From Liolophura sinensis (taxonomy: Eukaryota; Mollusca; Polyplacophora; Chitonida; Chitonidae): a stretch of 64,000 nucleotides of DNA. The notes beneath the pieces were generated by a model. It had not been told where the DNA came from, searched no databases, and saw only the letters and a list, made by a program, of their open reading frames with translations. The position numbers and the translations under genes were made by a program. Below, piece after piece: positions 37,901-40,900 of the stretch; position 1 is the first letter of the stretch; every line of letters begins with the position of its first letter. The stretch lies in NCBI RefSeq assembly GCF_032854445.1, contig NC_088301.1, positions 26,708,402 to 26,772,401 on the forward strand. The letters run 5' to 3'.

Positions 37901-40900
37901 GAGATGTGCAAGTGAAAACTTCTTGGGTATAGCATTTGACATCAATGAAACAAATTTACAAAGGAGCAGAGAAGATCTGATGTAAAATCTGAGATGATTC
38001 TGTTGTGACTTACTTTTTTCCAGTCATCTTCCAGGGGTTGATAATCTCCGTCCTCTGAATCATCATCTGAACTCTCATCAGGATTTGTCTCTTTAGCTAC
38101 ACAACAAATAGACGCATAAGTACATGTATGTGAATAACTCCTGGAACTACTGGCACTTTCACTGATCAATCTGACAAAATAACAATTCAAAGGCTGACAA
38201 GTAACAGGTTTAATACTTTGAGGCTGATGGGAGGGTTTTCTCCTATCACATATCACACATTGTCCATCACATCTCTCATCCTACACATATATTCATACAA
38301 TTTAATTCTACTGAATAAGCATTATTTGAATAACTTCTTATAATTTTGGGTTTTAACACATAAAATCTGAAAAAACTATGCACTACGGTTATGCACGAAT
38401 AGATTCCAGTAAACAGACATAGAGGCTGTTGAAAGCATCTCCAGGTCACAGGTGTTCCTTGTACTGTCAAACTGAAAGTAAGATCTTACATCTAACTCTG
38501 AGTAGCCTGGCTGTGTGTGAGGGCTCCACACTGTCCAGGAGGTCGGTGACACTGGTCTCCTGGTCATCCATATCATCGCTGTTCTGCAGCAGGTCACGGG
38601 CGATCTCCTCCTTGTCCAGCGTCAAATCCTGGTTGCTCAGGATCTCCTCTTCACTGCTGGAACGCGTGTCCTGAGGATTGTTACCATCACGGTACATTGC
38701 CAGCAGCTCCTCAATGGGCATCTCACCCTCCTGCCAACAAACAGGTACACTCATAAACACAGTCATTACAGTAGATTCTCATCAGCTCCTCAATGGGCAT
38801 CTCACCCTCCTGCTAACAAAGAGGTACACTCATACACACAATAATTACAGTGCATTCTCATCAGCTCCTCAATGAGCATCTCACCCTCCTGCCAACAAAC
38901 AGGTACACTCATACACACAGTAATTACAGTACATTCTCATCAGCTCCTCAATGGGCATCTCACCCTCCTGCAAACAAACAGGTACACCCACACAAAGTAA
39001 TAACAGTATACTGCTAACAGCTCCTCGATGAGCAACACACCCTCCTCCCTACACATCACCACATTTAATAGTCACAGTATGTAACATCTTAAGCAGCTCC
39101 TCATTGCACACCTCACCCTCTTCCCTACATACGATCACATTTAAGTCACAGTACATAACATCTTTACCACCTCCTCAATGGGCACCTCACCCTCCTCCCT
39201 AAACACAATCACATTTAAGTCACAGTACATATCATCTTAACCACCTCCTCAATGGGCACCTCACCCTCCTGCCTACATACAATCACATTTAACAATCACA
39301 GTATGTAATATCTTAAGCTGCTCCTCAATGCGCACCTCACCCTCCTCCCTACATACCATCATATTTAACAGTCACAGTACGTAACATCTTAAGCAGCTCC
39401 TCAATGGGCACCTCACCCTCCTCCCTACACACGATCACATTTAACAGTCACAGTACGTAACATGTGAAGCAGCTCCTCAATGTGCACATCACCCTCCTCT
39501 CTACATACGATCACATTTAATACAGTCACGATACATTGTCAGCAGCTCCTCAATGGCCACTCTCCTCCCTTCATACCATCACACTTAGTACATAGTCACA
39601 GCACATACATGTCAGCAGTTCTTCAAAAACTGCAAATTGTGCAAATAATCAATTCCTGGACTTGCAGAGAAATTATCTATCTCAAGTAAAATGGAGTGAT
39701 ACTGAGTGAAAATGCCAGGTGAACTGCCTTCATTTTCACCACAACCCCTCGCTGAGCTCACTGACCAGTCGCCCAATGCTTCACACACAGCCTTCCAAAC
39801 CATACAATTTACTCTGATGTACAACAACACAAACAAGCAGTAAGGACTGTTGCAACTTAATTCAGAAGTACAAGTACTTGTACATGCATTCAAAACCATA
39901 AATTTACAGATTTATGAACTGCTCTGCCTCCTGACCTTTTCCAAGTCATCCAACTCATTGCTGCAGCTGTCACCACTCAGAGCTTCCTCTTCTTCCAAAG
40001 TTTTCTCATCATCAAAGTCATGCACTAGCATCTCCGCCGACGGATCAAAATCCTTGTCCGTGTCTGCAGCATAACAAAAATGACTTGATAAGCAAATGAT
40101 TAAACAGTTTTTTTTATTTTATTGCCTGATACAATGCATCTTCCAATTTCTGCTTGTAAACCTTCCTGCAAGAGTACCAGACACAGTATCCATGTCAGCA
40201 GTGGTACAAGATTAAAGGACACATGAAATATATGACCATTTTTTTTTATTTAATACGCAATTTGGAATATTTTCAAACGTATGAAAACACCACAAAATTC
40301 TCACCTTTGAGTTAAAAATGGGTTTAAACTATATACAGCTTTCCTAAACAGTGAGTATACAAATTAGGTGGTCTGCAGGCCTGAATTCAGTGGTGATAAA
40401 TGTAGTTGTGAAAAAGAACTCTATTGACAGGCCAGCGGAACAAGTCATAATGATGGGGGATGCTTAGCTGGCATGTTCACTGCCTGATTGGTAGTTTTGA
40501 GACATCAAATAAAACAAAAGCCAAATGTTTGATCACCCTTCTTAACAAATTTCCAAAGTCTCTATGCTGCACATGGAACTTTCTGTTCACAGCACATGCA
40601 CTTGTCTTGTTACTAATGCAGAAATGGCAGGAATTTAAATTTACAACACTGACAAACACAATCAAACTATATACATCTAAAAGTTATATCTAGCTAAAAC
40701 TGAAGCCATTCATATTTGACTCAACATTGCCAATTAAGTCACAGTTTGGTCTGGAAGATACATCATCAGTTAAAATGTTACTATGATTTGTTTCTTTATT
40801 ACTCTTCAGTCCATTTAATTATGAAAATATTTCAACTTGAAAATTTTTTCCACTTCTGTGGCTGTCAGTATTATCTTTTAAGTGGAAATATCAGTAAGAT

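Follow-up and report, generated by a model that had tools for sequence, protein, structure and literature searches.

Tandem copies of splice junctions beside a MIER1-like exon and other exons of the chiton Liolophura sinensis

The window analysed here is a stretch of 64,000 nucleotides from the genome of the chiton Liolophura sinensis, a species name that its authors later corrected from L. japonica (PMC12441733). The assembly was built from HiFi reads with a mean length of 8,347 bp at 14x coverage (PMC11068029). On the minus strand of the window lies a MIER1-like gene. Its exon 3 (39936..40063, with an approximate 5′ end) ends in phase 0 at the donor AAG/GTCAGG, where the slash marks the splice junction; intron 3 spans 1,205 nt (38731..39935); and the true exon 4 (38491..38730) begins after the acceptor TTGGCAG/GAGGGTGAG and ends at a predicted donor, AGAT/GTAAGA. 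Exon 4 starts at base 38730, and its junction, TTGGCAG/GAGGGTGAGATG, is in phase 0. Exon 4 holds 80 codons without a stop, in frame with exon 3, and joining the two exons in silico produced no stop anywhere. Genome-wide, exon 4 had a single match, and a MIER1 copy free of the array described below, which we wanted as a control, was not found in the genome within the limits of the search.

We name the gene on the basis of a presumed similarity to human MIER1. Pfam searches with the protein joined by hand gave an ELM2 match of 34.9 bits (cut-off 21.7), a Myb match of 19.7 bits, below the cut-off of 24.4, and a MIER1_3_C match of 26.1 bits, slightly below the cut-off of 27. The SANT stretch of the protein resembled RERE, MTA1 and RCOR chains (E-values 4.3e-15 to 7.8e-10). 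No Pfam family matched the last-exon ORF or the exon 4 ORF when either was searched alone.

In intron 3, the junction with exon 4 recurs in 11 diverged copies of 70–79 bp, followed outwards by a truncated twelfth, and the full units make up 836 nt of the intron (~70%). The first-pass annotation had reported 11–12 junction units in tandem just upstream of exon 4, and both the count and the inclusion of the exon 4 boundary in each unit were borne out by unit alignment, by Tandem Repeats Finder (TRF) and by resampling. Copies of the first 27 nt of exon 4 start at 39566/39569, 39496, 39420, 39344, 39268, 39194, 39120, 39044, 38967, 38888 and 38809. Matches of at least 19/27 to the exon 4 start numbered 12 on both strands of the 64 kb, namely these 11 copies and exon 4 itself; intron 3 thus has 11 matches, whereas 300 first-order Markov resamples averaged 0.01 and never exceeded 1. 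TRF split the array into a block of 4.6 units of 79 bp and another of 7.2 units of 76 bp, and the unit lengths, from the outermost to the one nearest the exon, are 70, 76, 76, 76, 74, 74, 76, 77, 79, 79 and 79 bp.

These units, all on the minus strand, fall into two subfamilies: each of the three exon-proximal copies measures 79 bp, and the outer copies are 70–77 bp. Decoy P1 (38731..38809, acceptor TTAGCAG) is identical to the real junction context at 72/79 positions, and P2 (38810..38888, acceptor TTGGCAG) at 75/79. P3 (38889..38967, acceptor TTTGCAG) matches the same context (52 nt of intron and 27 of exon) at 55/79 positions in an ungapped comparison, and its intron side derives from D4, a unit shorter by 2 nt. 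D4 (38968..39044, 77 bp) is a hybrid, with an exon piece of the distal type and a spacer of the proximal type. The six distal decoys D5–D10 (39045..39496, 74–76 bp) have weak junctions of the TAG or GGGAG type, with GGCAG at 39268 and GGGAA at 39120. The outermost full decoy is D11 (39497..39569, ~70 bp), and the truncated twelfth copy, exon-like in TTTTTGAAGAACTGCTGACATGTATG (39570..39629), was aligned by eye, without statistics. The outer copies mostly have GTG in place of ATG and carry TAGGGAG at the majority of junctions. We recovered what had first been noted of the junctions: GCAG is kept by the three nearest copies and by one distal copy (the one starting at 39268), and most distal copies have GGGAG or similar. 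Overlooked in that reading was that in 7/8 distal copies a TAG precedes the old junction by 4 nt. The nine residues said to recur, EGEMPIEEL, are encoded by the copies at 38809 and 38967, but the copy at 38888 reads EGEMLIEEL.

The copied piece of exon 4 is longer than 27 nt, because the match of D11 to exon 4 continues at 18/24 positions beyond nucleotide 27, which none of 2000 shuffles equalled. Over the same stretch, the proximal spacers matched weakly (13/24, p ~0.02) and D4–D10 at 10–12/24 positions (p 0.05–0.40), both in ungapped comparisons. Variability was lower in the exon-derived part of the unit than elsewhere, a difference that fell short of significance in both subfamilies (p ~0.16).

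We scored the candidate splice sites with general metazoan weights, rather than with a model trained on Liolophura sinensis. On this scale the P1, P2 and P3 acceptors scored 4.35, 3.04 and 4.59, respectively, against 3.04 for the real acceptor, and P3 was the highest of all 12. The best acceptor among the outer copies reached 1.13; the distal decoys lack CAG or have poor pyrimidine tracts. The idea that the array is a string of decoy 3′ splice sites is supported to the extent that acceptor-like sites occur in several units; the distal ones score low. We also found a latent 5′ splice site, GAGG/GTGAGA, at 38721..38730 on the minus strand, 4 nt into exon 4 (GT at 38726–38725). GAGG/GTGAG occurs in exon 4 and in 8/11 copies, each time 4 nt after the junction, and these latent donors scored 4.29–4.61, compared with 2.61 for the exon 3 donor and 2.86 for the exon 4 donor on the same general weights. 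We rejected this site as a recursive-splicing or microexon device for MIER1: the resulting exon would be 4 nt long, and the four cassette paths that we tested all reached stops.

Reading through each of the 11 decoy junctions led to a stop in every case, and neither these 11 extensions nor the four cassette paths kept a frame open, as a copy recruited as an additional exon or intron would require. The nearest decoy had been predicted to meet an in-frame TGA before the real exon. The in-frame TGA is there, but it lies at 38725–38723, inside exon 4 (nucleotides 6–8), since a unit of 79 nt puts the reading out of frame. For P1–P3, the shift by 79 makes the GGGTGAG of the adjoining copy read as TGA; the TGA of the latent donor is thus itself the stop in the shifted frame. 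For P1, P2 and P3, respectively, 235, 314 and 393 nt separate the stop from the predicted exon 4 donor downstream. Under the usual rule for nonsense-mediated decay (NMD), a stop triggers decay when it lies more than 50–55 nt upstream of a junction, and the stops from P1–P3 would be far enough upstream for NMD.

We surveyed other exons of the genome for similar arrays, in a small sample restricted to three families. The first sample comprised the best 30 kinase, 20 helicase-C and 20 RRM loci from a Pfam search of the genome, ~3 kb each; merging near-identical matches reduced these 70 loci to 57 groups, and redundancy was checked in these 70 alone. The second sample comprised 40 short regions, each a match with 130 nt per side (24 helicase-C and 16 kinase), hand-picked without sight of the sequence and with a preference for matches that end within the profile, that is, for internal exons. 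It had been planned at 50 regions (24 helicase-C and 26 kinase), and the final 10 kinase regions were left out. Boundary arrays were present in 8/110 exon regions, a count that leaves out MIER1 because MIER1 prompted the survey; six were on the donor side and two on the acceptor side. They occurred in 6/40 regions chosen as internal exons and in 2/70 loci of ~3 kb, or, by family, in 5/44 helicase-C, 3/46 kinase and 0/20 RRM regions. In this genome, the MIER1 array is one among many.

Among the first 70 loci, self-matches at the exon were seen in three (L052, L053 and L075). L075 was rejected as a boundary array: its repeat (L075:1501-2060) is a ~350 bp tandem duplication of coding RRM sequence within one open frame. 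Arrays at four kinase loci (L019, L024, L025 and L037) had no obvious exon edge by eye. The 40 short regions were scanned with a shorter-word version of the self-match search and the positives were then read. In control scans, MIER1, L052 and L053 trimmed to equal size all scored, and the other 68 of the 70 loci did not. Reading showed a boundary-spanning repeat in each of the six positives, although the call for L106, which had the weakest scan signal (2 word matches), rests mostly on reading. Copy numbers in the short regions are minima, because the array continues past the region end.

Both positives among the ~3-kb loci have long donor-side arrays. At L053 (1643-2501; contig C6 near 78233400), whose best chain is DDX41 (2.1e-21), 39-bp repeats each contain the exon end and TATG/GTGAGT or a near form. 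We counted 22 donor-like sites, the true donor included, with GT in 22/22 and GTGAGT in 19, and an in-frame TAA arises from the first unit. At L052 (1633-2212; contig C10 near 1641401), a DEAD-box exon with eIF4A as best chain (4.3e-13) that we take to be DDX52-like, 22-bp repeats carry AATAG/GTCAGT (26.6 copies by TRF), and GT was present in 16/18 scored sites, true donor included. Both GT counts are tilted by the search anchor, which itself includes GT; the regular spacing at L053 indicates that no copy was missed, and at L052 some were. The remaining donor-side arrays lie at exons of Dicer (L092), a DEAD-box protein that is presumably DDX24 (L094), a SMARCAD1-type remodeller (L102) and a receptor tyrosine kinase (L113), in which the decoys have lost GT and read GGTTGAG. 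The two acceptor-side arrays lie at exons of PKN (L106) and of the PAS-domain kinase PASK (L107). Apart from DDX41, Dicer, SMARCAD1, PKN and PASK, gene names are provisional, in part also for MIER1.

Arrays of this kind have been described in amphioxus, where they were named mirages in Adh3 and also found in globins, TnC and PGBD5 (PMC3087553, PMC3902484). As in the chiton, the amphioxus mirages (BflGb6/BflGb9, Adh3, TnC and PGBD5) are minisatellite-like copies of boundaries, with AG or GT kept in many, not all, copies, and with both 5′ and 3′ boundaries affected; the amphioxus units are 10–160 bp (PMC3087553, PMC3902484). Tandem copies across an exon–intron boundary are what we found at MIER1 and eight other exons, and splice signals are likewise kept in many but not all copies, with CAG retained at MIER1 in P1–P3 and D7 and changed in the others. 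Comparing interior with end units of the MIER1 array, we found the second half of D11 to be the most exon-like, besides the two subfamilies. The chiton arrays differ from those of amphioxus in belonging to a mollusc rather than a cephalochordate, in including two arrays with at least 20 copies, and in having a counted frequency (8/110). Among the papers listed from the open-licence literature, a scope that most subscription papers fall outside, we recognised no mirages beyond amphioxus and no mollusc case, and the main text of a comparative chiton genome paper (PMC12005716) mentions no tandem repeats, minisatellites or satellites. The kind is therefore already known; what seems new to that literature is the phylum, the number of copies and, most of all, how frequent they are.

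Two further systems resemble the MIER1 array in part. The VNTR in intron 18 of human ABCA7 is also intronic, starts at a splice site and has units with decoy sites: its 25-bp units contain the exon 18 donor, one unit can be retained, with a frameshift and a premature termination codon (PTC), and its length correlates with exon 19 skipping (PMC5954066). By contrast with MIER1, its units are on the donor side, and its polymorphism and splicing effects have been measured. The ABCA7 case shows that such arrays can matter. In the intron gain of potato RdRp (the Rogers 1989 model), the duplicated segment also spans an intron–exon boundary, with an acceptor region and a latent exonic donor (PMC4974935); there, one duplication gave rise to a used intron, whereas MIER1 has a long array and no sign of new introns.

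We consider it likely that the MIER1 array is a near-neutral boundary minisatellite, a mirage, and that it is tolerated thanks to exon definition, which would select the copy next to the exon. A minisatellite would have been born across the exon 4 3′ splice junction, from ~20–30 nt of intron end and ~45–50 nt of exon start, and would have grown into intron 3 in at least two bursts, the older giving the 74–77-bp family and the younger the 79-bp family beside the exon. Unequal crossing-over, the growth mechanism first suggested, is plausible given the two subfamilies and the hybrid D4, but slippage or conversion may account for it too. Tandem duplications probably arise throughout the chiton genome, and a duplication over a splice junction would lengthen the intron only while the exon-proximal site stays in use. 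Where flanking introns are large, the splice sites nearest each other across the exon are preferred (PMC9225289). The exon-proximal copy would be chosen because the introns are long enough for exon definition and the closest sites across the exon pair; the other copies would be removed along with the intron. Judged from the conserved coding sequence, the exon-proximal site is the true one in the observed arrays, and we assume that array-bearing exons are correctly spliced. Occasional use of a decoy would lead to a stop and probably to NMD, and the arrays would drift. In this account we infer neutrality, the causal part of exon definition, the involvement of NMD, which burst came first, and growth by unequal exchange.

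A different account is that mirages are deleterious and actively weeded out, so that we catch them in passing with their distal units already inactivated. We regard this as unlikely. The loss of CAG in all distal MIER1 units but one and the GGTTGAG decoys of L113 point in its direction, and this decay could reflect selection rather than drift. On the other side, three strong acceptors persist closest to the MIER1 exon, and the GT counts at L053 and L052 are high, with the caveat that the anchor includes GT. Placement bears on both sides. Over all 110 regions, an array lay within 25 nt of 12/220 edges (5.5%), against 246/2800 random flank points (8.8%), a rough comparison because the edges are profile-match ends rather than proven splice junctions. 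The first 70 loci contributed 3/140 edges, and there match ends need not be splice junctions, because many matches look long or single-exon; in the 40 internal-exon regions, 9/80 edges were near an array. Exon edges are thus hit by arrays, with no excess over chance shown, and in the 40 internal-exon regions there is no sign of either avoidance or preference; the 110 regions together fall somewhat below the random rate, which may leave room for mild purging. Tandem self-similarity covered 8.0% of the flank DNA of the 70 loci, 16% of window positions 1–30000 and 5% of positions 40101–64000, and TRF coverage was 10.7% in the window and 5.3% in the 70 loci. Minisatellites are dense at 5784-23210, within the window's first third.

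It is improbable, in our assessment, that the array is a ladder of poison acceptors, in which decoy use channels some MIER1 transcripts into NMD and the MIER1 dose depends on how long the array is. P1–P3 score at least as high as the real acceptor on the general weights, every decoy junction leads to a stop (for the strong ones, 235–393 nt before the predicted exon 4 donor), and retention of an ABCA7 VNTR unit with a resulting PTC provides a human precedent (PMC5954066). However, the decoy sequence is without significant constraint, the distal decoys score poorly, and arrays in unrelated genes imply no role specific to MIER1. The proposal of the first-pass annotation that decoy use would be harmful or regulatory is unsupported: because 8/110 other exon regions, in unrelated genes, share the arrangement, it is better read as a tolerated by-product of minisatellite growth than as a MIER1 device. 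Nothing specific favours a use of the ladder for control.

We think it very improbable that the copies serve as an intron nursery, a source from which new introns or exons are drawn. The units do link a presumed branch-site and acceptor region to exon sequence, the latent donor recurs in 8/11 of them, and such an origin has been proposed for amphioxus globins (PMC3087553) and demonstrated for a potato RdRp gene (PMC4974935). Yet a latent donor 4 nt past the acceptor would give a new exon of only 4 nt, and the cassette paths all ended in stops. An artefact of assembly or haplotype merging is scarcely credible: HiFi coverage is modest (14x) and contig C99 carries seven concatemer-like cox1 copies ~15.5 kb apart, but an assembly error is unlikely because the array is short relative to the mean read (8,347 bp, far longer than the 1.2-kb intron; PMC11068029), the copies are diverged and unequal in length, and other genes, at loci independent of this one, carry arrays of the same pattern with different units.

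How the spliceosome distinguishes a true site from a near-identical copy beside it has long been asked, mostly with engineered duplications. Here a living animal offers the comparison within its own conserved genes, with four near-identical acceptors in a row at MIER1 and about twenty donors at DDX41; the number of copies, their distance and their decay vary naturally. These arrays extend mirages from cephalochordates to a second phylum, and at the sampled frequency they would count as a general trait of the genome, not an oddity. We hold the chances to be evenly balanced that approximately one in ten chiton internal exons carries an array of its own boundary, in which case the genome would offer thousands of natural tests of duplicated sites, evolved independently of amphioxus; the survival of the arrays would then show that exon definition alone can single out the true site. 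Gene models in array-rich genomes may also place exon edges wrongly.

Several minor observations were made in the same material. Nine RRM-coding loci (L065-L067, L069-L071, L074, L076 and L078), on several contigs, are linked at >85% identity, and eight of them have open frames of 181–192 codons; perhaps they represent a dispersed family, retroposed or borne by an element. Near 25950, 27500 and 59650 of the window one translated motif recurs, probably a common interspersed repeat. Eight molluscan haemocyanin units lie consecutively on one contig; together with the mitochondrial gene order, they speak against an amphioxus origin of the sequence, which the mirage literature had brought to mind. 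The cox1 matches of contig C99 give the appearance of a head-to-tail mitochondrial concatemer, probably an assembly artefact, and contig C632 (15,209 bp) is a single mitochondrial copy. The mitochondrial contig has the tRNA run M-C-Y-W-Q-G-E, and we take its gene order to be the ancestral mollusc order.
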